Origin: a virus
Strand: one strand, 5' to 3'
DNA: 42,984 nucleotides
IMG/VR virus record: IMGVR_UViG_3300032820_001953
Span: 1 to 42,984 of that record
The position numbers and the translations under genes are program-made. The notes beneath the pieces are model-generated. The model was not told the origin of the DNA, made no database searches, and was given only the letters and a program-made list of their open reading frames with translations. Shown piece by piece: positions 1 through 27,832 of this stretch. The number at the start of each line of letters is the position of its first letter. Positions within the stretch are counted from its first letter, which is position 1.

Positions 1-2
1 AT

Positions 3-305
3 GCAATTAAAATGCAAAATGATGTACCTCAAGGATTAAGTTCTTGCATTTTTACAGAAAATTTAAGAGAAGCTGAAACATTTATATCTTCAGTTGGTTC
101 TGATTGCGGAATTGTAAATGTTAATATAGGACCATCAGGTGCAGAAATAGGTGGAGCATTTGGTGGAGAAAAAGATACAGGTGGTGGCAGAGAATCTGGA
201 TCTGATGCTTGGAAATCTTATATGAGAAGAACTACAGTTACAATTAATTATGGTAGAAAATTACCTTTAGCACAAGGTATAACTTTTGCATCTGATAAAA
301 AATAA
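3..305 (+). CDS. ALDH7-family aldehyde dehydrogenase, C-terminal part (5' end outside window)
   Basis: This is the last ~100 residues of an NAD(P)-dependent aldehyde dehydrogenase, closest in my recognition to the ALDH7 group (antiquitin / alpha-aminoadipic or piperideine-6-carboxylate dehydrogenase). Signatures seen are [48 protein letters not shown] and the C-terminal [12 protein letters not shown]. The frame is open to the window edge, and the three in-frame codons before the first ATG (position 12) continue the family consensus, so ATG 12 is internal. The catalytic cysteine and most of the NAD domain lie upstream and cannot be checked. Its stop overlaps the next ATG (TAATG), so it is co-transcribed with the downstream oxygenase. 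An enzyme of this family is unexpected in a T4-like phage; a host metabolic gene carried by the phage is the likely explanation. Confidence 0.85.
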
Positions 306-931
306 TGCCTAAAGGATTTTATAGAGATCAAGACATTTGTTTTGATATTAAAAAACTGCAAAATGCAATTAAAGAAGTAGATTCAAGAGTAGCAAGACAA
401 TCCCCATTAGGAAAAAATGACCTTACTGCAATTTGTTTAACACAAATACCTGAAGATCCAAATTCAATTACAGGCGGTAATGTTAGAGGTCTATATTGGA
501 CAAAACCAGATAGCACATATAAAGAAGTAGAAAGAGAAGCACCTATTAATGAATCACAATATTCAGAATTTGTTAAACTGTTTGAAGATACATATTTTAA
601 AGAAGTATACGATAAATTAACAACCAAATATGAATTAGGTAGAGTTAGATTACTTTGGAAAATGCCACGTACAACATTAAGTTGGCATAGAGACCCTGAA
701 CCCAGAATACATATTCCTATCATAACAAATTTTGGTGCTCGTATGTGTATAGGTGAAGTAGTTCATCATATGCCTGCAGATGGATCTGTATGGGTTACTA
801 ATAATACAAAATATCATAACGCATTTAACGGTGGAGAAGAAGATAGAATACATTTAGTTGCTACTGTTTTAAATTGCGATATGAAAATTTTTGATAGTTA
901 TCCAAATTCTTCTCTTAATCAAATTTGGTAA
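305..931 (+). CDS. Aspartyl/asparaginyl beta-hydroxylase-like 2OG-Fe(II) oxygenase
   Basis: This 208-residue protein carries the metal-binding pattern of the aspartyl/asparaginyl beta-hydroxylase family. There is an H-x-D pair in SWHRDPEPRIHIPI (His128, Asp130), a distal histidine in TKYHNAFNGG (His171), and a following arginine in EEDRIHLV that would hold 2-oxoglutarate. Family members use Fe(II), O2 and 2-oxoglutarate to hydroxylate protein side chains; the substrate here is unknown. It starts at the ATG that overlaps the stop of the aldehyde dehydrogenase. It ends shortly before a strong promoter, so it closes its transcription unit. It is one of two unrelated-looking 2OG oxygenases within 4 kb. 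Confidence 0.75.
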   Translation: MPKGFYRDQDICFDIKKLQNAIKEVDSRVARQSPLGKNDLTAICLTQIPEDPNSITGGNVRGLYWTKPDSTYKEVEREAPINESQYSEFVKLFEDTYFKEVYDKLTTKYELGRVRLLWKMPRTTLSWHRDPEPRIHIPIITNFGARMCIGEVVHHMPADGSVWVTNNTKYHNAFNGGEEDRIHLVATVLNCDMKIFDSYPNSSLNQIW

Positions 932-941
932 TCTACTCTAC

Positions 942-970
942 TTGACAATACAACCAATTTCCTTTATTAT
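942..970 (+). promoter_or_regulatory. Sigma-70 promoter (early type)
   Basis: TTGACA at 942-947 and TATTAT at 965-970 are separated by exactly 17 bases. Predicted transcription start is near 977, giving a leader of about 40 bases with a strong AAGGAG ribosome site at 1001-1006 ahead of the ATG at 1016. This is the best promoter in the window and drives the small gene that follows. Confidence 0.8.
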
Positions 971-1015
971 AGTACTAACATTGATAACAATTAATTATTT
1001 AAGGAGATATCTTCA

Positions 1016-1264
1016 ATGACAATTACTATACAAGAAAAAGTCCTTAATGCTTTAAACAACGGACAGGCTCTTTCTTCAGCAACGATCAAAAATAGATTTG
1101 GTGCTGGAAATCCAGGCTCTGTAATCCAATCTTTAAGATTTAAAGGATATCCAGTGTTTTTAAACACAAACAGTAAAACTGGTTGTAAAGTTTATAGAAC
1201 TGGTAAAGCACCACGAAAAGTAGTAGGTGCAGGATATAAAGCATTAGCAAAAGGCTTAATATAA
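1016..1264 (+). CDS. Small winged-helix-like phage protein
   Basis: This 82-residue basic protein has a predicted helix-turn-helix layout: IQEKVLNALNNGQAL, then SSATIKNRFGAGNPGSVIQSLRF, then a beta wing around GYPVFLNTN..GCKVYRTG. I recognise the pattern (IQEKVLNAL..., RFGAGNP...) as a conserved small protein of marine T4-like phages with no assigned role. The winged-helix fold is my inference; it may bind DNA. The gene stands alone between a near-consensus promoter with a strong ribosome site (AAGGAG, 9 bases upstream) and a hairpin plus a rho-independent terminator. That arrangement suggests abundant expression, perhaps from early in infection. Confidence 0.75.
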   Translation: MTITIQEKVLNALNNGQALSSATIKNRFGAGNPGSVIQSLRFKGYPVFLNTNSKTGCKVYRTGKAPRKVVGAGYKALAKGLI

Positions 1265-1291
1265 TATTAAGAACTCTGTTAGTTCTAATAT
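1264..1291 (+). other. Stem-loop after the small winged-helix gene
   Basis: AGAACT (1270-1275) pairs with AGTTCT (1281-1286) around a 5-base loop. The stem extends through a single bulged A into ATATT (1264-1268) pairing with AATAT (1287-1291). There is no U-tract, so it is more likely an mRNA 3'-end stabiliser or processing site than a terminator by itself. The real terminator follows a few bases later. Confidence 0.55.
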
Positions 1292-1294
1292 ACT

Positions 1295-1337
1295 AAAGGT
1301 CGTCTGTAACCTACGTAATAGGGGGCGACCTTTTTTT
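1295..1337 (+). terminator. Rho-independent terminator
   Basis: AAAGGTCG (1295-1302) pairs perfectly with CGACCTTT (1326-1333), followed by a run of T to 1337. The intervening bases contain a short inner stem (CCTA / TAGG). It separates the small winged-helix gene from the AAA ATPase gene, which has its own promoter. Confidence 0.85.
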
Positions 1338-1376
1338 ATGGCTAATGACCCGCTATTTTACTCGTTTCTTAGGCTA

Positions 1377-1405
1377 TTGACTTTTTGGCTTAAAGGCTTT
1401 ATTAT
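1377..1405 (+). promoter_or_regulatory. Sigma-70 promoter (early type)
   Basis: TTGACT at 1377-1382 and TATTAT at 1400-1405 with a 17-base spacer. A second candidate -10, TATAAT at 1406-1411, is too far from this -35 box. The predicted start near 1412 gives a leader of about 24 bases with a purine-rich ribosome site (GAAGGG) before the ATG at 1436. It would drive the AAA ATPase, ligase and downstream small genes. Confidence 0.7.
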
Positions 1406-1435
1406 TATAATAAAGGCAACAGAAGGGCAAAATAA

Positions 1436-2440
1436 ATGAATAAACAAATCTACGTTTTAGAAGGAAGTTACCGAAATAGAAAAGTCGAAAATACTACTTT
1501 TAAATTAGTTAAACCATACCAACCATATCCACATAAAGAAGGTGGATTCATCACAGTAAAAATAAACGATCTCACACAATATCCGGGTGCTACAAAAGAT
1601 CATATAAGAATTAGTTTAAACAACGAAAATCAATTAAGAGATAAACCACCAGAATCTCGTAAAGAAGAAACTGACGCAGAAGTTGTTGAAAGAATGCGTA
1701 AACGTTTTGAAATTTTAGATTCAATGACTAAAGCAACCAAAAAAGGAGACATCAGAGCAATGATAGTATCTGGCCCTCCAGGTGTTGGTAAGTCATATGG
1801 TGTTGAAAAAGTTTTAGAAAGATATGGAGTTATATCTACATTAGGAGATTCTAAAAAGAAATATGAAGTTGTCAAAGGTGCCATGAGTGCTATTGGACTA
1901 TATGTCAAATTATACAATTTTCAAGAAAAAGATTGTGTTGTAGTATTTGATGATTGCGATAGTGTTTTATTAGATGACCTATCTTTAAACTTATTAAAAG
2001 CGGCTTTAGATTCTAAACGAACTAGAAGAATATGTTGGAATACAGATTCACATATGCTACGTAGGGAGAATGTACCAGATCATTTTGAATTTAGAGGTTC
2101 TGCTATATTCATTACTAACATTAAATTTGATAATGTAAAATCTAAAAAATTAAGAGACCATTTAGATGCATTAGAATCTAGATGTCACTACATAGATTTA
2201 ACAATTGATACTATGAGAGAAAAAATCTTAAGAATTAAACAAATCGTAGGAGACGGTATGTTAAATGAATATGCTTTACCAGAAGATGTTAAGCAAGAAA
2301 TAATTCAATGGATAGAAGGTCATAAAAGAAGACTTAGAGAAGTAAGTCTTAGAACTGTACTTAAAGTAGCAGACTTGGCTAAAAGTTTTCCAGATAATTG
2401 GAAAGCAATGGCTGAAAATACAATTTTAAAACCGAGGTAA
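1436..2440 (+). CDS. Phage AAA ATPase
   Basis: This 334-residue protein has a Walker A motif GPPGVGKS near residues 118-125, preceded by the strand AMIVS. Walker B is VVVFDDCD, and an arginine-rich sensor region (GSAIFITNIKF, ALESRCHYIDL) follows. The first ~95 residues have no domain I recognise. The core resembles AAA proteins carried by marine T4-like phages. Its place directly before DNA ligase (one base between the genes) suggests a DNA-replication or repair role, perhaps helicase- or remodeller-like. The specific substrate is not evident. It should be transcribed from the promoter at 1377-1405. Confidence 0.75.
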   Translation: MNKQIYVLEGSYRNRKVENTTFKLVKPYQPYPHKEGGFITVKINDLTQYPGATKDHIRISLNNENQLRDKPPESRKEETDAEVVERMRKRFEILDSMTKATKKGDIRAMIVSGPPGVGKSYGVEKVLERYGVISTLGDSKKKYEVVKGAMSAIGLYVKLYNFQEKDCVVVFDDCDSVLLDDLSLNLLKAALDSKRTRRICWNTDSHMLRRENVPDHFEFRGSAIFITNIKFDNVKSKKLRDHLDALESRCHYIDLTIDTMREKILRIKQIVGDGMLNEYALPEDVKQEIIQWIEGHKRRLREVSLRTVLKVADLAKSFPDNWKAMAENTILKPR

Positions 2441-2441
2441 T

Positions 2442-3776
2442 ATGAGAACACAACCACAAGAAGTAATAGCAAAACTAGAAGCAGATAATTCTAGACTTAA
2501 AAAAGAAGCAATAGTTTTAGATGCAATGAAAGAAGGATTGGACGAATTCTTTGAAGGTCTAAAAATGTGTTTAGACAAACTATACACATTTGGAGTTAAA
2601 CAAGTACCTACTAAAGATGACGTTATATCAGCTCAAGGCTGTGAATGGAAAGTGTTTAAAAAATTAGCTGAACAACTTTATAATAGAGAACTTACAGGAC
2701 ACGCGGCTCGTGATGCAATTAAACTTGTAATGAGTTCTGCAACGCCAGAACAATGGAATGGCTTTTATAGAAGAATCTTAATTAAAGATTTAAGATGTGG
2801 TGTTACAGAAAAAACTGTAAACAATGTTGCAAAGAAAAACAAATTTAAACAATATACAATTCCAGTATTCACTTGTCAATTAGCACAAGACTCTGCAAAA
2901 CACGATAAGAAACTTACTGGTAAGAAAATGTTAGAAGTTAAATTAGATGGTGCTAGAGTTGTATCAATTGTTTATCCAGATGGCAAAGTTGATATGTTTA
3001 GCAGAAATGGAAAAGAGCTAAACAACTTTGGACATATTGCAGATGAAATAAGTGAAGTAGTTAAAAATTCTCCACCACCTTATCCTTTAATTTTAGACGG
3101 TGAAGTAATGAGTGATAACTTTCAAGACTTAATGAAACAAATTCATAGAAAAAGTTCTGCAACAGCCAAAGATGCTAAACTGCATTTATTTGATTTTATT
3201 CCATTAGCAGATTTCAAAAAAGGCATTTGGAATAAAAGCCAAAAGGATAGAACAGAAATGGTTAAGGCTTGGTACGAACAACATAAGGCAAGTCTAACAA
3301 CTGTAGAAGTGTTAGATCATGAAATAGTTGACTTGGACACAGAAGAAGGGCAAAAGACGTACACAGCGATTAATAAGAGGGCAGTAGACGGGGGATATGA
3401 AGGTATCATGATAAAAGACCTAGACGCTCCATATGAGTGTAAAAGAACTACGTCTTGGTTAAAATTAAAACCATTTATTGAAGTATCATTGAAAGTAATT
3501 GACACAGAAGAAGGTACAGGTAAAAATGTAGGTAAATTAGGAGCACTTATTGTTGAAGGTACAGATGATGGCAAGTTTATTAAAACGAATGTAGGATCTG
3601 GTTTAACTGATGAAAATAGAGAAGAATTTTGGAAAGCAAAAGGAAAACTTACAGGACAAATAGTAGAAGTTAGAGCAGATGCAATTACACAGAATCAAGA
3701 TACAAAAAATGAATGGAGTCTTAGATTTCCAAGGTTCTTAAGATTTAGAGGATTTGATGTCGGAGAAAAAATTTAA
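2442..3776 (+). CDS. ATP-dependent DNA ligase (T4 gp30 type)
   Basis: The 444-residue protein has the nucleotidyltransferase motifs in order. Motif I is EVKLDGARV, with the AMP-accepting Lys at residue 167. Motif III is LILDGEV, motif IV is YEGIMIKD and motif V is SWLKLKP. A C-terminal OB-fold region (EGTGKNVGKLGALIVE ... RFPRFLRFRG) follows. It seals nicks in phage DNA during replication, recombination and repair using ATP. The first ~150 residues form the helical DNA-binding domain expected of T4-type ligases. It follows the AAA ATPase by one base and overlaps the start of the next gene, so it is part of an operon. Confidence 0.93.
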   Translation: MRTQPQEVIAKLEADNSRLKKEAIVLDAMKEGLDEFFEGLKMCLDKLYTFGVKQVPTKDDVISAQGCEWKVFKKLAEQLYNRELTGHAARDAIKLVMSSATPEQWNGFYRRILIKDLRCGVTEKTVNNVAKKNKFKQYTIPVFTCQLAQDSAKHDKKLTGKKMLEVKLDGARVVSIVYPDGKVDMFSRNGKELNNFGHIADEISEVVKNSPPPYPLILDGEVMSDNFQDLMKQIHRKSSATAKDAKLHLFDFIPLADFKKGIWNKSQKDRTEMVKAWYEQHKASLTTVEVLDHEIVDLDTEEGQKTYTAINKRAVDGGYEGIMIKDLDAPYECKRTTSWLKLKPFIEVSLKVIDTEEGTGKNVGKLGALIVEGTDDGKFIKTNVGSGLTDENREEFWKAKGKLTGQIVEVRADAITQNQDTKNEWSLRFPRFLRFRGFDVGEKI

Positions 3777-4431
3777 AGATACTTTAGCTATGGACTTGTG
3801 GTTTCCTACAATTGTATGGAACGACAACTTAAAACACATCGATAATAAGATGTTAAATAATTATGTCTTAAATCTTAAAGAAAAAGATAAAGGACGAATT
3901 GTAACTAATTATGGTGGTTGGCAAAGTAACATGATTAAAAGCAAAATTCACGAAGATTTATCACCAAGTGAAAATACTGATATAATAGAAAAATTTATTG
4001 AATCATTACAAAATGCAATTAACCAATGTGTTAAAATGGCAGGGTTAATGGATTTACAAATATGTGACTATTGGTGGAACATAAATTATAAAGGTGATTA
4101 TAATAAACCACACCATCACAGTGATAGTATTTTAAGTGGTGTTTATTATATTGATATACCAGAAGACAATATGGGAGATATTCACTTTGAAAGAGAAGAC
4201 CCAGCACAATATTTTCTTCCTAGATATATGCCTACGCGAAATAAATTAACTTCTACTAGAGCTACGTATAAACCTAAAACAGGTGGTTTATTAATTTTTC
4301 CTAGTTGGGTTACGCATAGTGTAGATGGTAATAAAACAGATAAACCTAGAATATCAATGAGTTTTAATACAACTATTGCCCGAACACCTGCTAATGACGA
4401 ACTAGCAAGAATGAATGGATTTAAAATATGA
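3757..4431 (+). CDS. 2OG-Fe(II) oxygenase of the PF13759 type
   Basis: The protein (224 residues from ATG 3757) has the family pattern HHHSDSILSGVYYIDIP, with metal ligands in the HHHSD stretch at residues 119-123. The distal half reads GGLLIFPSWVTHSVDGN, with the second metal histidine at residue 187, then an arginine in PRISMSFNTT for 2-oxoglutarate. Such small oxygenases are common in marine T4-like phages; the substrate is unknown. I chose ATG 3757 over the TTG three bases before and over ATG 3790 because AGAGGA sits at ribosome-site distance from it. It overlaps the ligase end by 20 bases and is followed by an ATGA-type overlap. Confidence 0.82.
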   Translation: MSEKKFKDTLAMDLWFPTIVWNDNLKHIDNKMLNNYVLNLKEKDKGRIVTNYGGWQSNMIKSKIHEDLSPSENTDIIEKFIESLQNAINQCVKMAGLMDLQICDYWWNINYKGDYNKPHHHSDSILSGVYYIDIPEDNMGDIHFEREDPAQYFLPRYMPTRNKLTSTRATYKPKTGGLLIFPSWVTHSVDGNKTDKPRISMSFNTTIARTPANDELARMNGFKI

Positions 4432-4682
4432 GAAATCAATGGTACATTAAAATATATGCAATAACAATTATTGTTTTAGCATTGTTATTTTTTGCTTATA
4501 ACTCAAATGCTGAAGATAAAAAACCTGGATTACAAGGGTGGGGTAATAAGTTATTTGAAGTATTAGACCAAGAAGTTCAAGACACTAAATCTTACCAAAA
4601 GAAACAATGGGAAAAGATGAAAAGACAGTTTAAAAATTTATTTAATAGAAGCGAAAAAGAGTGGAATGAATTAGATGAGTGA
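4428..4682 (+). CDS. Small exported protein
   Basis: This 84-residue protein has a clear signal peptide: a basic N-terminus (MRNQWYIK), a hydrophobic stretch IYAITIIVLALLFFAY and a likely cleavage site after NSNA. The mature part is charged and helical (KKQWEKMKRQFKNLF), with no conserved domain I recognise. It would be secreted to the periplasm or tethered in the inner membrane. It overlaps both neighbours by a few bases, so it is translated within the ligase-oxygenase operon. Function unknown. Confidence 0.65.
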   Translation: MRNQWYIKIYAITIIVLALLFFAYNSNAEDKKPGLQGWGNKLFEVLDQEVQDTKSYQKKQWEKMKRQFKNLFNRSEKEWNELDE

Positions 4683-4971
4683 AGACATTAAAACAAAATA
4701 TGACAGACTAGAGCACCCAGCTTTTGGACGTAAAGAACCTAAGCCAATGACTTTAGAACAAGAAAAAGAAGAATGGGATTTTTGTATGGACCAAGCAGAT
4801 CACGATACAATGTTAAGAAGAGAAATGGCAAGAATTAGAAGAGAATGGGCACCTTGGAAAGAAAAAGATGTAACAGATACACATAAAGTTATCTATGAGG
4901 CAGAAAGAAGAGTTAAATTATTGCCTAAGAAAGATATTAATAAACATAAGCCTGGTGCACATGAAATATAG
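4675..4971 (+). CDS. Conserved-type hypothetical protein, highly charged
   Basis: This 98-residue soluble protein is rich in Glu, Lys, Arg and Trp, with a probable long helix over residues 25-65 (EQEKEEWDFCMDQ ... MARIRREWAPW). No signal peptide, membrane segment or catalytic motif is visible. It starts inside the end of the exported-protein gene (8-base overlap) and overlaps the next small gene by 11 bases. It therefore appears to be part of a translationally coupled chain of small genes. I do not recognise the family. Confidence 0.6.
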   Translation: MSEDIKTKYDRLEHPAFGRKEPKPMTLEQEKEEWDFCMDQADHDTMLRREMARIRREWAPWKEKDVTDTHKVIYEAERRVKLLPKKDINKHKPGAHEI

Positions 4972-5176
4972 GGCCAGTACACTTAAAAAATATCAACTAT
5001 TATCAGATAAAATTAATGATGAGCAATGGAGTACTCCTCGACTTAAAGAATTTTGGAAAAAAAATCGAAAATTTGAAAAATGGTTTAAGGAAAATGTTTT
5101 AGATGATTATTCAAAAGAGTCTGGTCATAGATTTTTTCCTTCAAAGTTTAGGGGAGAATATGGTGAAGGAAAATGA
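4961..5176 (+). CDS. Small basic hypothetical protein
   Basis: A 71-residue, Lys/Arg-rich soluble protein (MKYRASTLKKYQLL ... FPSKFRGEYGEGK). The open frame extends 22 codons further upstream to 4895. I prefer ATG 4961 because it gives the same short overlap (11 bases) used between all neighbours and avoids a 77-base overlap. It has no recognisable domain. The composition suggests nucleic-acid or protein binding, but that is only a guess. Confidence 0.55.
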   Translation: MKYRASTLKKYQLLSDKINDEQWSTPRLKEFWKKNRKFEKWFKENVLDDYSKESGHRFFPSKFRGEYGEGK

Positions 5177-5406
5177 ATGAATTAATATTTGGTATATTAT
5201 TAATATTTGGATTAGGTATAATAGTTGGCTGGTATATGTCTAATACAATAAACAAAACTAGATACGAAAGTATATTAAAAAATAGTGCAATGATGATGGG
5301 TATGACTAGAGAAGTTTGGGAAAGAATTATTAAAGCAAAAAGGATGGAACATGGCGTTCAAAAAAAGAATGTTCAACAAGACTCCGAGAAGAATACATCG
5401 GAATAA
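5173..5406 (+). CDS. Small single-span membrane protein
   Basis: A 77-residue protein with one N-terminal transmembrane helix (IFGILLIFGLGIIVGWYM, residues ~5-22), followed by a charged tail ending in KKNVQQDSEKNTSE. It has no cleavage site, so it probably stays anchored in the inner membrane with the tail in the cytoplasm. It overlaps its upstream neighbour by 4 bases (ATGA). A second small gene begins out of frame inside its 3' end at 5351. Function unknown. Confidence 0.6.
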   Translation: MNELIFGILLIFGLGIIVGWYMSNTINKTRYESILKNSAMMMGMTREVWERIIKAKRMEHGVQKKNVQQDSEKNTSE

Positions 5407-5485
5407 AGGTGGACGTAAAAAAGGAACAGTTTCCATCAAACCTATCAAAATAAAAAAACCAAAACAATCGGTCTGGTTTCCTTAA
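5351..5485 (+). CDS. Tiny basic protein (44 aa), overlapping gene
   Basis: An ATG at 5351 opens a 44-codon frame to TAA 5483-5485. The product (MAFKKRMFNKTPRRIHRNKG ... PKQSVWFP) is extremely basic: about 40% of its residues are Lys or Arg. It overlaps the last 56 bases of the membrane-protein gene in another frame and uses the otherwise empty stretch before the next gene. A weak purine-rich site (AGGATGGAAC) precedes it. It could be a nucleic-acid-binding or host-takeover peptide. Its reality rests on position and composition only. Confidence 0.45.
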   Translation: MAFKKRMFNKTPRRIHRNKGGRKKGTVSIKPIKIKKPKQSVWFP

Positions 5486-5527
5486 ATCACTATTTTTCTT
5501 TACTCAAGACTATATAAGAAATATAGC

Positions 5528-6349
5528 ATGACTGAAAAAACGGAAATTCAAAAACCCTCAATACAGGAACGAGTTGCAAAAAGAGTACAACAAATTGCTC
5601 AACCAATTGAACTATGGTTAGACAGATTAGTTGCAAAACCTGAAAAATTTAATCCTGAAAATTACAAATTACTAGATCATCTTAAAAAAGAAAAAACAAA
5701 AGGTCAACACGCAAGAAAACTTAAAGAATTATATCAAGGACAATATGATGAAATCTTTTTTTATTATAAAGCAAAAAAGAAACCATTTGAAGAACTTAAT
5801 GATGATGATCAACAGTTGGTAGAGTCATATAACGAATTTAGTAAAGAAGAACTTCAATTACACATTAAAACATACGAACATATATTCAAGGCTTGTGATT
5901 ATATGATAGGTATAGCTAATGCTAATAGAAAATCAAGGAAAAGAAAACCTATTAGTAAAACAAAAGCAATTTCAAAATTAAAATATAAACGTGAAGATGA
6001 CAGGCTAAAATTGATTAGTATAAATCCAGAAGATATAATAGGTTGTGAAGAACTATGGGTTTATAACACTAAAACTAGAAAACTAGGATACTATGTAACA
6101 TCTACATTTGATCCAAGAGGTATGGAGCGAGAGGGCACTGGATTAGGTGTTAAAGGTACTTCGATATTTAGGTTTAATGAAGAAATTAGTGTACAAAAAA
6201 CACTAAGAAAACCCCCAGAACAGCTTCCACACTTTATAAACGGTCCTAAGACTAAATTAAAAGAAGACCTTGATAATATTAAAGCAATGGGCTTAAAATT
6301 AAATGGACGTATTAATCCAGACGTTATATTACTTCGGGCTATTAGATAA
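5528..6349 (+). CDS. Conserved hypothetical protein (273 aa)
   Basis: A soluble, Lys/Glu-rich protein. The first half is helical (IQERVAKRVQQIAQPIELWL, then KEKTKGQHARKLKELYQGQYDEIFFYY). The second half is richer in beta strands, ending in QKTLRKPPEQLPHFINGPKTK. I recall similar proteins in marine T4-like phages but not a function. It begins a new unit after a 42-base gap that has no clear promoter; a TATATAAG stretch at 5511-5518 lacks a matching -35 box. The next gene's late promoter is built on its stop codon. It may be a virion or assembly component, judged by its place before fibre genes. Confidence 0.6.
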   Translation: MTEKTEIQKPSIQERVAKRVQQIAQPIELWLDRLVAKPEKFNPENYKLLDHLKKEKTKGQHARKLKELYQGQYDEIFFYYKAKKKPFEELNDDDQQLVESYNEFSKEELQLHIKTYEHIFKACDYMIGIANANRKSRKRKPISKTKAISKLKYKREDDRLKLISINPEDIIGCEELWVYNTKTRKLGYYVTSTFDPRGMEREGTGLGVKGTSIFRFNEEISVQKTLRKPPEQLPHFINGPKTKLKEDLDNIKAMGLKLNGRINPDVILLRAIR

Positions 6350-6352
6350 ATA
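6345..6352 (+). promoter_or_regulatory. T4-type late promoter (GATAAATA), leaderless
   Basis: The GATAAATA box contains the TAA stop of the preceding gene (6347-6349). It is followed by exactly 5 bases and then the ATG at 6358. In T4 the late octamer ends at about -6, so the A of this ATG is the predicted +1. There is no ribosome site in the spacer. Confidence 0.7.
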
Positions 6353-6357
6353 ATTGC

Positions 6358-7236
6358 ATGAGTACAAAAGACGACATAATTCACATTAAAGCAGGACTAG
6401 TAACATTGGGTGATGCTATAGAAAAATTGACTGTTTCTGTAGATGATTCAGATGAAGTAGCTAATGTTAGCAAATCTATTAATTTTAAAGGTACTGCAGA
6501 TAACTCTATATATGGCAAGGGCTTATCTTGGAGTGGCTATGGTAATAAAAAACAACTAAACTACCAAACCAATCCTGATAGACTATGGAGTAGCGACATT
6601 ATAGACATTAATAAAGGCTCCCATTTTTCTGTAGATAATACATTTGTATTAAGTGAAGTAGAATTAGGGCCAACAGTTAAAACTTCTAATCTTAAAAAAG
6701 TTGGTATATTAGAAGGATTAGCAGTTAACGGAAATGTTAATTTTGACTCTTTTGTATTTTATGACTCAGGATTCAGTCGACTAGGAATAGGAACCGAACT
6801 TCCAAATGGACAATTATCGGTATCTTCTAACGACGTAGAATTTAGAGTACAACCAAATGAAGACAACGCAGAAATAGGAACCTACACAACTGCATCATTG
6901 AGGATCCAAACAGATAACACAGATAGAATTACTATAGGTGCTCATGGAGACGTTAAAATTGGAACACAAGGTGGTCAAACAACGTTAAATGTTTACGGCA
7001 AAGTTGGAATAGGCGTTACTAATCTTGATAACAACATATCTTTAGACGTTGACGGTCCAATTAGATTTCAAAGTAAAAAATTCCAAACAGGTACTGAAGC
7101 ACCAACAGAAGGTTCTCATTCCCAAGGAGATGTTACTTGGAATAGCAATCCTACTCCAGGAAACGTTATGGGTTGGGTATGCGTTCAAACAGGAACACCT
7201 GGCTTATGGAAATCTTTCGGAAATATCGGAAATTAG
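6358..7236 (+). CDS. Fibre-like virion structural protein
   Basis: This 292-residue protein is Gly/Asn/Thr-rich and beta-repetitive. Its modules are typical of phage tail-fibre shafts: SRLGIGTELPNGQLSVSSND, RITIGAHGDVKIGT and GKVGIGVTNLDNNISLDVDG. The C-terminus, GTPGLWKSFGNIGN, resembles the short caps seen at the ends of marine phage fibres. The N-terminal 60 residues differ and may be the attachment region. It should be made late, from the box at 6345-6352, with the ATG at the predicted transcript start. It is separate from the main fibre block by about 3.4 kb. Confidence 0.7.
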   Translation: MSTKDDIIHIKAGLVTLGDAIEKLTVSVDDSDEVANVSKSINFKGTADNSIYGKGLSWSGYGNKKQLNYQTNPDRLWSSDIIDINKGSHFSVDNTFVLSEVELGPTVKTSNLKKVGILEGLAVNGNVNFDSFVFYDSGFSRLGIGTELPNGQLSVSSNDVEFRVQPNEDNAEIGTYTTASLRIQTDNTDRITIGAHGDVKIGTQGGQTTLNVYGKVGIGVTNLDNNISLDVDGPIRFQSKKFQTGTEAPTEGSHSQGDVTWNSNPTPGNVMGWVCVQTGTPGLWKSFGNIGN

Positions 7237-7550
7237 AAAATCAACTTAACTTTTGGAATTGGGTGGGCAGAATTGCTCCTCTAGTTGCTCTTGTTATTGT
7301 TATTTTTCTAATTACATTTCAATTTAACACATTACTAGACTATACCATTGGTTTTATAAGCATTGCTTTCGCCTGTATTGCTTTTATATGGTGGTGGTGG
7401 GTAATTCAAACAATACATGATTTTTTAAAATTAAAAAATTATGCAAGTGGTAAATTTAAAGAAATTAAAAAAGAATTAGAAAGTATTAAAATAGATTTGC
7501 ATAAATCAAAATCTATTAGAAAAAAAGAACACAACAAACTTAAAAAATAA
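7206..7550 (+). CDS. Small membrane protein with two spans and a coiled tail
   Basis: Starting at ATG 7206 the product is 114 residues. Two adjacent transmembrane helices are visible (IAPLVALVIVIFLITFQF and IGFISIAFACIAFIWWWWVI). They are followed by a Lys/Glu-rich coiled-coil tail (FKEIKKELESIKIDLHKSKS). The frame is open further upstream to 7173, but only a non-ATG start is available there; ATG 7206 gives a 31-base overlap with the fibre gene. It could be a holin-like or superinfection-exclusion-like protein; a holin-like candidate also exists in the lysis cassette at 35.9 kb. Function unassigned. Confidence 0.55.
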   Translation: MEIFRKYRKLENQLNFWNWVGRIAPLVALVIVIFLITFQFNTLLDYTIGFISIAFACIAFIWWWWVIQTIHDFLKLKNYASGKFKEIKKELESIKIDLHKSKSIRKKEHNKLKK

Positions 7551-7552
7551 GT

Positions 7553-8011
7553 TTATGTGTTTAAAATTTCCTTAAGATATTCTTTATTCCAATAAGAATA
7601 GTAATCTGTTTTGCGTAAATTATCTCTTGCTTCTTCTAATTCTTTTCTTTTTTGACCTAATACAAAATTATATTTTCCATTATTTGTTTTTACTTTGTCT
7701 ATATACGTTTTTCTTTCTCGATGATCGGGCAAAAACACATAAGATGGATGTTCTTTATTAAGCAATTCACATAATTGATTTAATTGTGATATTGAAAAAT
7801 CATTATTAAACATAAAAATTGTAACATCTTTTTTAATATGTTTTTCTTCAACAAAACGAAAACAGTTTTCTAAAATACTTTCATCACAAATAACCAAATT
7901 CCATACTGCTTTTTTGGCATAAGGGCAGACAGAATGACCATTTAAACTTTCATTTACAACACCTAAATGTTGTATCCAATCCTCTATATGGCTGTAAATA
8001 CGTTGAGTCAT
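7553..8011 (-). CDS. Hypothetical protein on the reverse strand, next to sugar-enzyme genes
   Basis: A 152-residue soluble protein read on the - strand. I take the internal ATG at 8011 (MTQRIYSHIEDW) rather than the upstream in-frame start, which would overlap the divergent gene. Features are NGHSVCPYAKKAVWNLVIC near the N-terminus, ENCFRFVEEKH, and a later SYVFLPDHRERKTYID. No family is certain. It is convergent with the membrane-protein gene (2-base gap) and divergent from the MptE-like gene, with only 19 bases between starts. It is one of only two reverse-strand genes in the window. Confidence 0.6.
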   Translation of the reverse strand: MTQRIYSHIEDWIQHLGVVNESLNGHSVCPYAKKAVWNLVICDESILENCFRFVEEKHIKKDVTIFMFNNDFSISQLNQLCELLNKEHPSYVFLPDHRERKTYIDKVKTNNGKYNFVLGQKRKELEEARDNLRKTDYYSYWNKEYLKEILNT

Positions 8012-8030
8012 TATAATAACGATATTTAAT

Positions 8031-8615
8031 ATGGTAGTAATAGGAAACGGCGAAAGTAGAAAACTAATCAATCTAAGTGAAATTAAATCTGAAACGATTG
8101 GCTGTAATGCTATCTTTAGAGATTGTATAGTTGATCATTTGGTTTGTGTTGATCGAAGAACACTTAAAGAAGCAATTAATCACGAAAATACTAAACATAC
8201 AATGATATACACTAGGCCCGATTGGCTTAATATGTATACAAGTGTTTTTGAAGTACCAGAACTATTTTATGAAGGAAAAGAAAGACCCGATCAACCTATG
8301 CATTGGGGCAGTGGACAATTTGCTCTTTTAGTTGCAATTGACAATTGTAATAGTGAAAATATAGATATTATAGGATTTGACCTTTATGGAAATGACAATA
8401 AAATTAATAACATTTATAAAGGAACCAAAAGCTATGAAAATGATAATTCACACGCCGTAGATCCTCGTTATTGGATATATCAAAATAAAAAAATATTTGA
8501 GTATTTTTCTAAATTTACCTTCAATTACTACGTAAATAATAGTTTTAAAGTACCTGATAGTTGGACAGGTCTTAAAAATCTTAAAATTAAGGACATTAAA
8601 AAATATGAGTACTAG
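8031..8615 (+). CDS. MptE/DUF115-like Rossmann-fold protein
   Basis: A 194-residue protein opening with VIGNGESRKLINLSEI, like the GNGPS loop of the 6-hydroxymethylpterin-pyrophosphokinase-like (MptE/DUF115) fold. Further matches are ETIGCNAIFRDCIVDHLVCVD, then GSGQFALLVAI and DIIGFDLYG. In bacteria, relatives of this fold act in surface-sugar or flagellin glycosylation (Maf-type proteins). The next gene, a glycosyltransferase, overlaps it by 11 bases, which supports a shared role in modifying a sugar on the virion, the DNA or the host surface. The exact reaction is not deducible. Confidence 0.6.
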   Translation: MVVIGNGESRKLINLSEIKSETIGCNAIFRDCIVDHLVCVDRRTLKEAINHENTKHTMIYTRPDWLNMYTSVFEVPELFYEGKERPDQPMHWGSGQFALLVAIDNCNSENIDIIGFDLYGNDNKINNIYKGTKSYENDNSHAVDPRYWIYQNKKIFEYFSKFTFNYYVNNSFKVPDSWTGLKNLKIKDIKKYEY

Positions 8616-9321
8616 ATACGTTGTTTGTCTTAAACATGGATTTAAGTATGGCCCTGAATATGTAAACATTTTAGCTAAAATGGTTAAAAGAAACTGTACT
8701 CTTCCTTATGAATTTGTTTGTTATACTGAAAACACACATGGTATAGACAAAAATGGTATAACAATTTTACCATTACCTACTGCGTATCCAATGATTTCTG
8801 GATGGTGGTATAAACCTTTGTTATTCAATCCTTGGCAAAAACAATTAAATGGCACAATTCTTTATATTGATTTAGATGTAATTATATTTAGAAATATAGA
8901 TAAACTTTTTACATATAAAGAAGGATCTTTTTGTGTAATAAAAGATTTTAATAGATCCACCAATCCTGATTGGACTAGAATGAATTCTAGTGTAGTTAGA
9001 TGGCAACCAGGACAACAGTCTCAAGTATATACAGAATTTATAAAAGACCCAGGTCATACAGCACGAAGATTTCACGGAGATCAAGATTGGTTGTATGCTA
9101 ATGTAAAAAAAGATTTTGAATTTTGGCCTGATGAATGGATCCAAAGTTATAAATGGGAAATGAGAAATAGACCGCCTATGGTTAGACAGCCAAATGGTAT
9201 TAGGAATTTTAAATCACCCGGAGTTCCTATAATAAAAGAAAATACAAGTATTGCTGTTTTTCACGGTGACCCTAATCCTAAAGTATGTTGTGACCCATGG
9301 TGTAAAGAAAATTGGAAGTAA
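8605..9321 (+). CDS. Glycosyltransferase (GT-A fold, GT8-like)
   Basis: A 238-residue protein with a DxD metal-nucleotide-sugar motif in TILYIDLDVIIFRNIDKLF. It also has the acceptor-side signature RRFHGDQDWLYANV and a C-terminal SIAVFHGDPNPK. The start (RYVVCLKHGFKYGPEYVNIL) is the first Rossmann strand. These are features of GT-A enzymes that use nucleotide-sugars with Mn2+. No signal or membrane segment is present, so it acts in the cytoplasm. It overlaps the MptE-like gene. Donor and acceptor are unknown; candidates are phage DNA, virion proteins or host envelope sugars. Confidence 0.78.
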   Translation: MSTRYVVCLKHGFKYGPEYVNILAKMVKRNCTLPYEFVCYTENTHGIDKNGITILPLPTAYPMISGWWYKPLLFNPWQKQLNGTILYIDLDVIIFRNIDKLFTYKEGSFCVIKDFNRSTNPDWTRMNSSVVRWQPGQQSQVYTEFIKDPGHTARRFHGDQDWLYANVKKDFEFWPDEWIQSYKWEMRNRPPMVRQPNGIRNFKSPGVPIIKENTSIAVFHGDPNPKVCCDPWCKENWK

Positions 9322-9506
9322 TTAGTTTAAAAGAATTGTTTGAAGTAATACATTGGTGTAATACCATTTCAGAAACTACAGTATTACCAATGAATGTAGT
9401 AGAATATTGTTCTGCTGTTCACACATATACTCTTGGTGAACATTTTGACAATAATTTTGAAAATTTTAAAACCATGTATCAAACATATATAGGAAACCTA
9501 CAATGA
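9312..9506 (+). CDS. Small hypothetical protein (TTG start)
   Basis: A 64-residue frame with no ATG near its start. A TTG at 9312 overlaps the glycosyltransferase stop by 10 bases, the same coupling used by its neighbours. The first ATG (9390) would leave only about 38 residues. The product is acidic (TLGEHFDNNFENFKTMY), soluble and unrecognised. It ends 4 bases into the lipoprotein gene. The call rests on its snug fit between neighbours. Confidence 0.4.
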   Translation: MEVISLKELFEVIHWCNTISETTVLPMNVVEYCSAVHTYTLGEHFDNNFENFKTMYQTYIGNLQ

Positions 9507-9712
9507 TAATACGAAAATTGATACTCGTCATTTGTTTTTTTGTTCTTATAAGCAGTTGTGTTAGAGGAAATCATACGTTAACCTCAGTATGTTATAAAGA
9601 AAAATATCATACGTTACTATTAGATGGAGCAAGAACTGTTAAAAGAATAGTTGATGATGAATGCTATAAAAAGGAAGAAGTCCTACGTTGGAAGTGGCAT
9701 AAACAATTTTAA
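9503..9712 (+). CDS. Small lipoprotein
   Basis: A 69-residue protein with a type II signal peptide: MIIRK, hydrophobic LILVICFFVL and a lipobox ISSC, so the mature protein would start at Cys19 and carry a lipid anchor. The remainder (SVCYKEKYHTLLLDGARTVKRI ..., last residues WKWHKQF) is short, with two further cysteines. Phage lipoproteins of this size often act in superinfection exclusion or as outer spanins. This one has no inner-spanin partner next to it, so exclusion is the better guess. Confidence 0.6.
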   Translation: MIIRKLILVICFFVLISSCVRGNHTLTSVCYKEKYHTLLLDGARTVKRIVDDECYKKEEVLRWKWHKQF

Positions 9713-9729
9713 TAATACCAAAATAGTTC

Positions 9730-9758
9730 TTGATTATTAATTTAAAATATTATATAAT
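9730..9758 (+). promoter_or_regulatory. Sigma-70 promoter, predicted leaderless
   Basis: TTGATT at 9730-9735, a 17-base spacer, and a perfect TATAAT at 9753-9758. The next ATG begins at 9766, 7 bases after the -10 box, which is where transcription should start. No ribosome site lies between. It lets the small membrane-protein gene be expressed separately from the genes before it. Confidence 0.75.
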
Positions 9759-9765
9759 CATTGAA

Positions 9766-9966
9766 ATGATAGACACATATATTACCAAAATTAAAAATTG
9801 GATAGGCCATAGGCTAAAAGAAAGAACTACTGCTGATGGTATAGTTCTTATCGTAGCAGGTATTGTTTACTTAATTTTTAAACCTATAGCAAGTTTAGTG
9901 GCTTATGCCGCTATTTTCTATGGTGGTTGGACAATTTATAAAAAAGAAAATAAATCCGACAATTAA
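9766..9966 (+). CDS. Small membrane protein, leaderless
   Basis: From ATG 9766 the product is 66 residues: a charged amphipathic N-terminus (MIDTYITKIKNWIGHRLKER) and two short hydrophobic segments (GIVLIVAGIVYLIF and SLVAYAAIFYGGWTIY). A longer frame begins at a TTG at 9730, but that codon is part of the -35 box. It is expressed from a near-consensus host-type promoter and so is probably early. Its end overlaps the end of the convergent zinc-ribbon gene by 4 bases. The role is unknown; a membrane-targeting host-takeover protein is possible. Confidence 0.6.
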   Translation: MIDTYITKIKNWIGHRLKERTTADGIVLIVAGIVYLIFKPIASLVAYAAIFYGGWTIYKKENKSDN

Positions 9967-10250
9967 AAATCACTTACTCGCTTTGTACTAGATACAGGCA
10001 TATCTAAGAGTTTTCTTTGTTTAACACCTTGTTGTTGAGCAAACTTTTTAGGATCACATTTAGCACATACGTGCTTATAAAAATCTGTTAATCTCTTTAC
10101 TTCAATACTACCTCTAGGTCTGATAAATTTTTCAGAGCAAGAATCACATTTAAAAATGTAAAGGGTTTGTACCCTTTTACATTTGTGTTTTTTACCTAAT
10201 TTGCTGGTCCTTTCAGACCAAGTAGTTTTTTTCTCTTCACCAATAAACAT
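9963..10250 (-). CDS. Zinc-ribbon protein on the reverse strand
   Basis: This 95-residue basic protein is on the - strand. It has two CxxC pairs, FKCDSCSEKF and HVCAKCDPKK, which should bind one zinc. The N-terminus (WSERTSKLGKKHKCKR) is Lys/Arg-rich. I recognise this layout from small proteins of marine T4-like phages; some resemble the zinc part of HNH-type or NinG-like proteins, but no HNH catalytic motif is present here. It probably binds nucleic acid. Only a weak late-like box (TGTAAATA, 7 bases from the ATG) precedes it on its strand. Confidence 0.65.
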   Translation of the reverse strand: MFIGEEKKTTWSERTSKLGKKHKCKRVQTLYIFKCDSCSEKFIRPRGSIEVKRLTDFYKHVCAKCDPKKFAQQQGVKQRKLLDMPVSSTKRVSDF

Positions 10251-10284
10251 ATAATTTTATTTACATTAGGATTAATGGATTTAC

Positions 10285-10292
10285 CATAAATA
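10285..10292 (+). promoter_or_regulatory. T4-type late promoter (CATAAATA)
   Basis: CATAAATA lies 22 bases before the ATG of the Fe-S carrier gene. The predicted start near 10298 gives a short leader of about 17 bases containing AGGAAA. It would drive the Fe-S carrier and the long fibre gene that overlaps it. Confidence 0.6.
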
Positions 10293-10314
10293 GTGTTAAC
10301 AGGAAACATTAAAG

Positions 10315-10671
10315 ATGGCGATATTAACACTTACAGACTCGGCAAAGCAAAAAATTAAAGAACTTTGTACAGAAAATAGCAAATATGCTGTGAGATTAGG
10401 AATTAAAGGCGGCGGATGTGCTGGTTTTTCCTATGATTGGGGATTTGCAAATCAAGACCAAATAGAAACAAATGATGAATTAATTCAAGTAGATGGTGGA
10501 AATCTATTAATAGATTCTGGTAGTATAATGTTTCTACTTGGTTCAGAATTAAGCTACGTAAAAGAAGTATTTGGTTCACAATTTAATATTACAAGTCCTA
10601 AAGTAAAATCGTCATGTGGTTGTGGAGAAAGTGTAACTTTTGATATGGATAAGGTAACTGTAGATGTCTAA
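10315..10671 (+). CDS. A-type iron-sulfur cluster carrier (IscA/ErpA/HesB family)
   Basis: A 118-residue protein, the normal family length, with the three conserved cysteines: Cys35 in KGGGCAGFSYDW and Cys101 / Cys103 in SSCGCGESV. A-type carriers hold a [2Fe-2S] or [4Fe-4S] cluster, usually between subunits, and hand it to target apo-proteins. Such genes occur in marine T4-like phages. Here it sits under a late promoter and overlaps the giant fibre gene by 8 bases, so it is made together with virion proteins. That timing suggests a cluster needed for a late or structural protein, though simple co-transcription cannot be excluded. Confidence 0.9.
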   Translation: MAILTLTDSAKQKIKELCTENSKYAVRLGIKGGGCAGFSYDWGFANQDQIETNDELIQVDGGNLLIDSGSIMFLLGSELSYVKEVFGSQFNITSPKVKSSCGCGESVTFDMDKVTVDV

Positions 10672-13600
10672 ACAGATTATTAATATAGGTATAGAAGGTA
10701 ATGACGGTACGGGTGATGCGATAAGAGACGCATTTCGTAAAGCCAATGAAAACTTCACAGAATTATATGCAGTATTTGGTCAAGGTGGTCAAATTACTTT
10801 TTCTGCATTAAGTGATACACCTGCCTCACTAGGTTCTAAAAAAATCCCAATATCTAACGATGCCGGTAACGCCATCGAAATGAGAACAATAACAGGTGGC
10901 ACAGGAATAGCTGTTGACTTAACAACAAATTCCGATGCTATTATTTTAAACAGTACAGGAACCACAGTTGATTCTGACGCTACACCAGGATTAGGCGGTC
11001 CACTTAATGGTAATACTTTTCCTATAGGAAATATATCCATTACTGATCAAGCAGTAATAGATTACAATACAGCCCACGGGGCAAATATATCTATAGATGA
11101 TCTTGTAATTAATAAAAAATATGCAGATCAAAGATATTTAAAAGTTTCAGGAGGTCCTAGTGGAGCATCAGGACAACTTAGAGTTAGAAATGAACCTACA
11201 GACGGTTCAGAATATACATTAACAATAACTGCTTTTAATAATGGTGACCCTACAATAACTAATCACGGATTTGACGCAGGTTCAAATGGTTTAGCTTTCA
11301 TTTATAATTCTACGGCAACTGATGCAGTAAATTTAGTATCAGAGTCTATTTACTACATTAGATACATTGATGTTAATACTTTATCTCTTCACGCCAGTGT
11401 AGCAGAAGCTACAAATGATGATGACAGTACAAGAGTTAAAATTTCTGCTAGTGGTGGTTCAGGAACTCAAACACTTGCTGATAATGAATACGATAGTACG
11501 TTAACAGGTAATTGGTTAAGTTCAGAAGCTCTTCCTAGAAAAGCTATAGTTCGAAGACAAGGCGATACTATGGAAGGAATACTTAATTTATTTGACCATC
11601 CAGGAGCAATGGCTGGATTAGGAAGAACATATCCAGATGCTTACGCAAATATAGTTGCAAATAGAGAATTTTTAGCAGACGAAGTAATGGCTTGGTTTGA
11701 TACTGCTTATCCAAATGCTCACAATCAACTTTTTAGTGTATCAGCCGCAACATACTCTCCTGCATCAGGAGTAATGGAATTAACTGTTGGGTCACACACT
11801 TTACAAGCTGGTACTACTATTAAGATTGACGCAAATAGTTTAACATTTACTTGTGCTTTAGATAGTCATGCAACAAATCATACCTATCCAAGAGCAACTG
11901 GATCATCTGCACCAGGCGGATATGATCCTGTTTACAATACAGCAATTGCAATTACTGGAGTAACAGCAACAACAATTACTGTAAATGTTGGTATATCAAG
12001 TGATACGTCAGCACATACATTTGTAAGTGCTACTTCTAATTGTATATCTACTGAACGTCATGAAAAATGTGAACGTGATACAAAATTTAATATTGATGCA
12101 ATTGCACATGACGTAAAACATGGAGGTAATGCAGAAATAATTAGAGTATCAAAATATTATTGGGAAGGTGCATCATCACAACTTGCCGCTGGCGAAATAA
12201 ATTATGCTATTCTAATTAATAATAAATTAAGAGATTTTATTAATACTAATATTATACCTAATGTTGCACTTTCTACAAATCAAAATCCAGTAGTTACTAC
12301 ACAAACTACTACAACTAAAAATGGAGAAGCAGGAGCTGATACAAAAGTAACTTCGTTAGTTGCAACTATTAATAATATTACTGAAAACGGTTTAGATGTC
12401 ATACCAACACCAACACCTGCAGTAGATGTCGGTGATTTACAGGCGGCAACAAAAAAATATGTTGATTCAGCAGTTACACATTCAGCAACTAATTTATTTG
12501 TAAACACCAAAGGTGACGATTCAATGGAAGGGATACCTCAAGATAAATGGGGTAGAACTTTAGGTACTGCTTATGCTACAATAGGTGCCGCGGCGGCTAG
12601 AGCAGAAGAAATAATGAATACTACTCCTTTTGAACCAGGTCCTTGGAGACAAGTTATTACATATAATAATGGTGCTAATGATTCTACAATAACATCTTCC
12701 GGTGTTGACAATAGTAGCGGTTATGGTGATGTAAAATTATTAATTGATGCTAATAGACAATTTATAATTGAAGAAGCAGTTGCAAGTACAGAGGCATCAT
12801 ATCCTACTCACGTAAATTTTGGAACTTTATGTAGAAGAGATTTAGGTTATGCTCTTGATGGATTAATTATAGATATAATAAATGGATTAAATGCTAATTA
12901 CCAAGCAATTTTAGTAGGGCAAAGATTTTATAACAGTAATAGTGGATTGTATGCAATTACTACACAAAAAGATCAAACATTACACGCAATAGGTTATGCT
13001 AAACAACTTGTAAATTATATTTTAACTAATACATCACCAGGTAGTTTATTCCAAACAGATTATACTCAAACAATTAATAATTCTTGGACTGTAGATGCTA
13101 ATGGATTAGCTTCTGCTCAAGCAAAATTTACAATTATAGAAAATATTGTTACTAATGGTTTAAGTGTTTCTCCTGCTCTTGTTGATGGTAGTACTTGGGA
13201 AATTAAACTTGACAATGGTGGCACAGGTAACGTAGATCCTAATCCAACTAATAGTCCAGATTTAATTGCTGGAAAAATGGTTAGAGGTTTAACTACTCAC
13301 GCAACAGGAAAAGTAGTTTCTGTAACACAAGGAGCTTCTGTAGATACAGTCCTAGTTGATTTATTAGAACCAAAAACATTTGCAATAGGTGAAAAAGTAG
13401 AATTTGCTCAACCAATAAGAGAGAAACATATAGCTATAAAAGTTGAATCAGGCGTATATTACGAAGACCTTCCAATCAAATTACCTGATAACGTTTCTCT
13501 TCAAGGTGATGAAATGAGAAGAAGTATTATTAGACCTCGTGACAGAATTTCTCAATCTCCTTGGGTAAGAATGTATTTTTATAGAGATTTAACATTTGAT

Positions 13601-16600
13601 GGTTTAACAATTGCTACACAAAATTATGGTTATCACTATTTGTCAGATGCAAATGACAACGCCAGTACTCCTAAAAATAATAAAGAATTAGATATTCTTT
13701 TATTAAACAACTCAAGTATTATAAAAAATATAACATTCCAAGGACATGGAGGCTTTGCACAGGTATTAGATCCTGAAGGAGCAATTCTTACTAAATCTCC
13801 TTATACGTTTGACGCCGCTTGTTATTCTCAATCTATAAATGCTAAAGCATTTAGAGGTGGAATGTATATTGATGCATTCGCAGGTAATTTACCTACAAAA
13901 GTAACTAATGTTGTTAGTCCTTTTATTTTAGACGTAACAAGTGATGCAGGAACAGGTTTAAGAATTAGAAAACCAATGACACCTTGTCCTTTTTATATTG
14001 ATGGTGATAGATATCAAATTAATGCAATAAAAAATTATGATCAAGCAAACGGTACAGCTCAATTACTTCTTGACTCTACATCCAATAGTGGTAATGGTTG
14101 GACTGGTGCATATTCTCCACCTTATTCTATTAATGTTCAAACAGCAGGTAATAAATCAGCTTTAGGTCACGCATTTACTCAAATAAATGATTTAGGTTAT
14201 GGTATAGTTGTTACTAATAGTGGATTATCAGAATTAGTATCTTGTTTTACATATTTCTGTCAAACAGGTATGTATGCAAATCAAGGTGGAAAAATAAGAT
14301 CTTTAAATAGTTCTTGTTGTCATGGAACATACGGACTTGTTTCATCAGGCAGTGACCCTAACGAATCTGTTGATCCTATAACATTAACAAGTGACATGGT
14401 TCAAACAGCACTAGCCCGAGATGATGGTGCTAGTCTAACAAATCCTAGTGGAGCATTATCAATTTATGTTTTTGATTTAGATTATGTTGTTACTAATAAT
14501 TCTGAAGTAGAAGTAGATCACGGTGGAGTAACAGGTGTTATAAGATATGAAGTTACAACTATTGAAACAACTACGGAAACTGCTCCGGCAAGTACTAGAG
14601 ATTCAGCAATCTATAAAATTAATTTAGGAACAAGTGGTAAAAACGAAACATCTACAACAGGATTAAAACAAGCTATTGCAGATGATCAAACAATAACGAT
14701 TAGAGCAAATTCTCAATTTGTATTTGGTGCTGTAGATGATCCGTCCCCAACAAAACCTACTACTGCTATAGTTTTTGATGAAACTCCTACAGTAACATAT
14801 AGAAGTATTTCTTATTCAACATCTAACCCAGTTGGTGTTGCCTTACCAGCCAATAGTGCCTTAATTGCTTTTGATGATGTTTATGACTATATTAAAGTAG
14901 TTGTAAATGATGCAGAAGCTCAAAATAGCACTCACGCAGGTGCAGGAACAACAATGGGACATACAGTAGGTGATGTTGTAATTGCAATTGATAAAGTTGC
15001 AGAATCAGTAGATATTGCAAGATTAAACAATGGCGATATGACATTTGGTTGGGATGGTAAAACTCACAAAATTACAAGTTATACAGATAGAACAACATAT
15101 GCCACAATAGAAATTACAGATGTATCAAATATTAATCCTACTCCAATAGGTACAGGAATTCATAGTCCTATGTCAGGATATACTGGAAGTTCTGGTGCTC
15201 CTACATTAAGAGTTGGCTTGTCATCTACTGAACCAGCTACAATTACTGTATTTGTTTCTACACTAAGAGCATCAAATCATGATTTCTTAGATATAGGAAC
15301 TGGTGGTTGGAATAGTACTAACTTTCCTAATGTAATTTATGGAGCTCCAACAACAGCTCCAGCTCAAGCTAATGAAACTTTAGAATTAGATAAAGGAAGA
15401 ATTTACTATGTTAGTACTGATCAAGATGGTTTCTTTAGAGTAGGAAAATATTTTACAGTTGATCAAGCCACAGGAACAGTTTCTTTTGCGGCGGCAATTG
15501 CAATTAGTAATCTTGATGGTATAGGATTTAAAAGAGGTGTTGTTGTAGCAGAATTTAGTACAGACGGCTCAATGATTGACAATTCTACTGATACTGTACC
15601 AACAGAATCAGCTGTTAGACAATATGTTAATAGAAGATTAGGTTTTGACCATGCAAATACTTTAGTAGGTAATCCAATTGGTGCAGGTGCAGTTGCTAGA
15701 GATGGTTCTGCTCCATTTACAGCAAACGTAGGTGCAGGCGGACATAAATTAATTGACTTATCAGATCCTTCAGCAGATCAAGATGCCGCTACAAAAAGTT
15801 ATACAGATAGCATCATATATGAAACAGATCAAATTGAAGATATAAGAAATATTAATATTTCTAGTTTAGCTTCAGGTCACCTTTTAGTATTCAATGGAGC
15901 ATATAGATTATTTTCTAATCCAGCATCAGGTGGAAATTTTGCGGCAAGTGATGTAATCACTGGTTCTGTTACAGGTGCAACAGGAACAATAACAGAAGTT
16001 GAAGTTCTTGTATTACCTGGAGGCGTTAATGCTACTAGAATTACTTTTAATTGGACTTCTAGCCCAACAGCTTTCACAACAGCAGATATAATTGACACAG
16101 GTGGTGGAGTTACAGCTCAAGTTATTGATGCTCCTATGAATGAAGTAGCCAATGCTGTAATGTCTGCATCTAGTGATGTTAGTATAACTGCAACTAGAGG
16201 AGCAAATGATACTGAAATAGATTTCCAAATAGAATCAGATGTTATTGTAAATGCAGATGTTAAATCCGACGCCAACATATCACAAAGTAAATTAAACTTA
16301 AATGCGGCAACTACAAGAGCAAATGCTTCAGGAATTAGTCAAGCAGACTTAGGTGTTGCAAGTTTTGATAGTAGCACTTTTACTATTACTGATGGTTGGG
16401 TTGAAATTACTCCTAGTTCACTTACATTTAGTGACTTACCTAATTTAGCTCAAAATGAAGCATATGCTAGAACAGCCGTTGGTTCAGGTTCAGCAAGTGC
16501 AATTAGTTTTGATGATATAATTAGTGGAGGTGGTGCAGTTATTGATTCTGACTTTGTTACAGAAGTAGGACAAGCAGATGATCCTGGAGAAGCACTTATA

Positions 16601-17775: not shown

Positions 17776-17783
17776 GATAGATT

Positions 17784-23111: not shown

Positions 23112-23119
23112 GATAAATA
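23112..23119 (+). promoter_or_regulatory. T4-type late promoter (GATAAATA)
   Basis: GATAAATA starts 5 bases after the protease stop. The predicted start near 23125 leaves an 11-base leader with AGGAGA directly before the ATG at 23136. Confidence 0.7.
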
Positions 23120-23135
23120 TGAGTAGGAGATAAAA

Positions 23136-27823: not shown

Positions 27824-27832
27824 AATATATAA

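Follow-up and report, generated by a model that had tools for sequence, protein, structure and literature searches.

Closest described systems

T4-type late promoters (TATAAATA; late sigma factor gp55, gp33 and the clamp gp45), including the cyanophage form NATAAATA, share their box sequence with the viral DNA described here (PMC2988020, PMC2984593). The T4 late box is numbered from -13 (PMC2988020) and spans -13 to -6, so that a box followed by exactly five bases and an ATG (an N5 spacing) would place the A of the start codon at +1. In T4 and Syn9 themselves, however, the box never lies five bases before a frame-opening ATG; their shortest spacers are 12 and, isolated exceptions aside, at least 15 bases, whereas relatives of the present sequence have a separate class with the predicted +1 on the ATG.

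A second precedent is provided by the TA-led leaderless genes of Actinobacteria, Deinococcus-Thermus and other bacteria (Zheng et al. 2011, PMC3160421). In these genes a -10-like signal lies approximately 10-12 bp before the start codon and the starts of transcription and translation coincide, as is likewise predicted here. TA-led genes are cellular and use host sigma factors, whereas the genes considered here belong to lytic phages and carry phage late and sigma-70-type promoters. Among phages, the lambda cI mRNA is translated from a 5'-terminal AUG (PMC9031893, PMC3160421), again as predicted here, but cI is a single lysogeny gene, whereas the genes at issue here, late structural ones and others, form a class spread over a phage clade. 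In bacteria, translation of leaderless mRNAs mostly proceeds through 70S binding at the 5'-terminal AUG (PMC9031893). AR9 was considered as a leaderless late-phage precedent and rejected, its leaders being 26-491 nt long. In the open-access literature searched, we found no account of T4-superfamily phages or pelagiphages making leaderless late transcripts as a class. The parts, T4 late promoters and TA-led leaderless genes, are known; what is apparently new is a leaderless class within the T4-type late promoters.

The window and its late boxes

The window, meaning the whole 42,984-base viral record analysed here, is a fragment of a marine T4-like phage genome with genes tightly packed on a single strand. 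Megablast of its positions 1-20000 against phage records returned no match. For its gp44-like clamp loader (55% identity) and ClpA-like protease (42%), the closest isolates are Pseudomonas jumbo phages of the PA5oct/Paride group, except that one Acinetobacter record (host unknown) ranks above them for the protease, with 46% identity; the gene order from clamp loader to protease is comparable in Paride. No gp55 was seen in the window, which is only a genome fragment, and the late timing of its genes is suggested instead by the box and by gp55 homologues in related genomes, which were detected in two related contigs (G001, 2e-6; G003, 4e-6), Paride (2e-4) and HTVC008M (7e-21). Elsewhere in the window, matches to Rz-like spanin families were obtained for each of two neighbouring ORFs at 34875-35716.

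The window contains 11 copies of ATAAATA against 34.5 expected, always on the + (coding) strand and always at a gene start (11/11), with no copy on the - strand. This roughly threefold depletion suggests selection against stray late boxes. The four ATAAATA-N5-ATG sites reported by the first-pass annotation are all present (6346-6360, 35915-35929, 39920-39934 and 41186-41200), all on the + strand, while dinucleotide shuffling of the window gave an expectation of 0.74 for both strands, and at least four sites in none of 100 shuffles. None of the four open frames has a possible start codon earlier than its N5 ATG. The boxes and their genes are as follows.

6345-6360, + strand: late box GATAAATA (6345-6352), N5, ATG 6358; holds the stop TAA (6347-6349) of ORF 5528-6349
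6358-7236, + strand: ORF of 292 aa, predicted leaderless; virion/tail-fibre-like by PHROG match
35914-35929, + strand: late box AATAAATA, N5, ATG 35927; stop 35916-35918 within the box
35927-36250, + strand: ORF of 107 aa, predicted leaderless; phrog_10198, unknown function
39919-39934, + strand: late box GATAAATA, N5, ATG 39932; best conserved of the four, no stop overlap (upstream stop 39904)
39932-40282, + strand: ORF of 116 aa, predicted leaderless; virion structural protein by PHROG match
41185-41200, + strand: late box AATAAATA, N5, ATG 41198; stop 41184-41186 of ORF 40617-41186 overlaps the first box base
41198-41404, + strand: ORF of 68 aa, predicted leaderless; no PHROG match

The gene upstream of the box at 35914 is doubtful, since the stop within that box ends an 82-aa frame that starts with TTG and has no PHROG hit.

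The other seven late boxes had been described as leadered and equipped with ribosome sites. This holds for six of them, which have spacers of 16-27 bases and an AGGA/GGAG-like site, but not for the box at 34727. Two leadered examples and the intermediate box are given for contrast.

23112-23138, + strand: leadered late box, spacer 16, GGAG
28350-28387, + strand: leadered late box, spacer 27, AGGAG; also on the upstream stop (ORF 27833-28354)
34726-34744, + strand: intermediate late box, 8-base spacer, ATG 34742, no Shine-Dalgarno site; predicted 3-nt leader

Spacings of N7 or N8 may give rise to leaders of 2-3 nt. The frame that opens at ATG 34742 is short and cysteine-rich.

Spacing of late boxes among relatives

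The related set comprised 94 IMG/VR loci in which a relative of either the protease or ORF 6358 is encoded, together with tiles over nearly all of four large related contigs; the isolates HTVC008M, Melnitz, Paride, T4, Syn9 and P-SSM2 were tiled as well. In the related set, box-to-start spacings fall into two modes, of which the first is a peak at 5 only one base wide and the second, leadered, spreads over approximately 16-36. Among 417 distinct boxes, 76 are at N5, 10 at N4 and six at N6, and the ranges 0-3 and 9-14 are nearly empty. Because orthologues inflate raw counts, proteins were clustered into families. Across 235 families from the related contigs and the six isolates, N5 accounts for 38, N4 for eight and N6 for three, against a mean of 3.4 families over the other spacings from 0 to 12; single-linkage clustering left a few clusters mixed, an effect that lowers the family count and does not inflate it. 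The comparison of N5 with other spacings in relatives, which the first-pass annotation had proposed as a check, therefore turns out strongly in its favour.

The peak is specific in several respects. At the same distance, no N5 peak is seen for ATGs that open no frame, control 7-mers give no comparable spacing peak unless they overlap the box, and when the 7-mers at -12 to -6 of start codons are counted blind, ATAAATA ranks first. The start codon at N5 in the related set is ATG in 76 cases, GTG in one and TTG in none, a strong AUG preference that is a trait of TA-led leaderless genes. Another such trait, a -10-type signal approximately 10-12 bp before the start beyond chance, is displayed by the N5 peak and by the sigma-70-type N6 peak described below. 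The base just before the ATG is a pyrimidine in 36/38 N5 families versus 97/193 leadered families, and at position -13 of the box G is preferred over T. A capsid-targeting-like N-terminal motif, tried as a mark of N5 genes, was not enriched (1/38 N5 versus 9/189).

Two other features of the four sites have lost their weight as evidence. Fusion of stop, promoter and start had been taken as the defining trait, and this is rejected: in the related set, 45/76 N5 boxes (59%) and 80/207 leadered boxes (39%) overlap an upstream stop, and since the leadered box at 28351 likewise sits on one, the overlap does not mark the N5 class and for the most part follows from genome compactness. A ribosome site is indeed missing at all four N5 starts. 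However, the box itself fills the Shine-Dalgarno position and forces its absence, and approximately 40% of plausible window genes have no recognisable site, so that this absence was discarded as independent evidence for a leaderless class.

A sigma-70-type counterpart

The class reaches beyond late promoters, to which it had first been assigned, and takes in promoters of the ordinary host type. In the same phages, sigma-70-type promoters with a -35 element at 16-18 bp show a sharp peak at TATAAT-N6-ATG (37 genes, 14 families), versus a shuffle mean of 0.93 per spacing. The spacing is N6 rather than N5 because the sigma-70 box ends at -7, one base earlier than the late box. Given the two box geometries, this one-base offset is needed for both to put +1 on the start codon. 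Two such promoters lie in the window.

27798-27835, + strand: sigma-70-type TTGACA-N17-TAAAAT-N6-ATG, ATG 27833, 173 aa, predicted leaderless; same arrangement before related genes of the related set
36274-36311, + strand: sigma-70-type TTGACT-N17-TATATT-N6-ATG, DnaJ-like gene, ATG 36309, 283 aa

For the window's DnaJ-like gene, the mechanical ORF list places the start at an upstream TTG (36282), between the -35 and -10 elements. Its family swaps promoters, with TTGACA...TATAAT-N6 in some phages and an ATAAGTA or GTAAATA box at N5 in others, yet the predicted +1 is kept at the same codon in nearly all members despite the swap. ATAAGTA-N5 was considered as a general class and rejected, 26 of its 30 hits coming from this one family.

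Leadered late promoters of the related set favour A at the predicted +1, where it stands in 60% of 207 boxes and in 52% when counted by family. This preference, the one-base-wide N5 peak, conservation among orthologues and the sigma-70-type N6 class agree in pointing to the A of the ATG as +1, and the prediction that N5 boxes form a distinct late-promoter subset with this start point is strongly supported. That core of the first-pass annotation survives; its stop fusion, its ribosome-site argument and its late-only scope do not.

Conservation and distribution among phages

Orthologues of ORF 6358 mostly retain an N5-N7 spacing. Conservation is clearest for gene 39932, where, counting only orthologues with a nearby box, N5 is found in 39/43, N4 in three and N7 in one, with varied spacers and flanks. 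The positional orthologue in Paride (31/97 residues identical, E 1e-13) has a 22-base leader and a Shine-Dalgarno-like site. Leadered and leaderless modes thus appear to interchange in evolution, and leaderlessness would not be essential, since orthologues of one gene can be leadered.

Among isolates, HTVC008M has nine N5 genes and at most two at any other spacing. In the annotated stretch examined, all of its N5 ATGs (7/7) coincide with deposited CDS starts; the N5 genes include homologues of the tape measure, gp2, gp48 and gp25, and the divergent pair 18916-/18943+ also carries N5. N5 ATGs of this phage include those at 6280, 7562, 19456, 31132 and 49760 and, on the minus strand, 16007 and 18916. 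Curli-like genes (CsgF, CsgG, CsgB) lie at 7562-9557 of this phage, and the leading one carries an N5 late box. In Mosig the N5 pattern matches eight times and its reversed control never; 6/7 of the matches checked are annotated CDS starts. The gp2 gene carries N5 in HTVC008M, Mosig and Melnitz. An earlier search for late promoters in pelagimyophages failed (PMC7029224), in contrast to the ease with which ATAAATA-N5-ATG is found in HTVC008M and Mosig.

The module is common to these pelagiphages and to the jumbo phages CM1 and XacN1. In Stenotrophomonas phage CM1, 7/7 N5 sites open long frames, as do 5/5 in Xanthomonas phage XacN1, two of the latter being near-identical copies. On the - strand of XacN1 (AP018399), an in-frame N5 ATG at 163334 lies 24 codons upstream of the annotated chitinase start (163262), and the deposited start may be wrong. 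Tiling of the T4 genome gave no N5 site. One of two sites in S-PM2 opens a frame, and P-SSM2 has two sites whose reality is uncertain. The hits in Atu_ph07 (0/5) and Syn9 (0/1) open no frame of 40 aa and were set aside as chance.

Proposed explanation and alternatives

The best explanation, which we consider very probable, is that the four window sites are T4-type late promoters whose transcription would begin at the A of the start codon. The resulting mRNAs would begin 5'-AUG and be translated without a Shine-Dalgarno site, presumably by 70S ribosomes that bind the 5' AUG directly, and the wider leaderless class in this phage clade would also draw on sigma-70-type promoters (TATAAT-N6-ATG). 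The fixed spacing with its enrichment and conservation, the ATG preference, the initiator context and the gp55 homologues are observed; the +1, deduced from T4 numbering, is inferred, as are translation of leaderless mRNAs, timing late in infection and any benefit for regulation. Counting against this explanation are the eight N4 families, which would need initiation one base earlier, and leadered orthologues such as the Paride counterpart of gene 39932.

The boxes could also be real late promoters whose genes are translated mainly from upstream read-through transcripts by stop-start coupling, the spacing reflecting compaction only. The tight packing of genes on one strand and the frequent overlap of N5 boxes with an upstream stop fit this reading, but compaction would not be expected to confine the peak to a single base or to move it from N5 to N6 when the promoter type changes, and N5 also occurs without stop overlap (39919) and at divergent genes (the HTVC008M pair); we regard it as improbable. 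Still less probable is a true start further downstream, with the N5 ATG merely initiator-like and the mRNAs short-leadered. An AGGA stretch does precede an in-frame TTG at codon 17 of ORF 6358, and the XacN1 gene is annotated downstream of its N5 ATG. In the 39932 and 6358 families, however, the proteins are similar from their first residues onward; the N5 peak is missing for ATGs that do not open a frame, and in HTVC008M and Mosig the N5 ATGs are the annotated starts.

The position of the motif, an A/T-rich stretch directly upstream of starts that lack a Shine-Dalgarno site, would also suit an A/T-rich translation enhancer or a binding element for ribosomal protein S1 that is no promoter at all. 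This seems very unlikely, given that the identical box, with its G preference at -13, is found at -40 to -20 of Shine-Dalgarno-leadered genes, where it can act only as a promoter, and that the sigma-70 form has a -35 element at 16-18 bp.

Implications

Leaderless mRNAs in phages are known from individual genes, lambda cI among them. With a reproducible class within the T4-type late promoters, lytic phages that infect very abundant marine bacteria would possess a defined programme of leaderless expression; many natural leadered and leaderless orthologues would be at hand for comparison, and the calling of start sites and late promoters would improve. As a tentative but not implausible extension, a large T4-superfamily clade, including SAR11 pelagiphages and several jumbo phages, may run two expression tracks, in which selected sigma-70 and late promoters are placed to give leaderless mRNAs and other late genes retain Shine-Dalgarno leaders. 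If true, part of the infection programme would be tied to 70S/leaderless initiation, for example where initiation factors or ribosomes change during infection.
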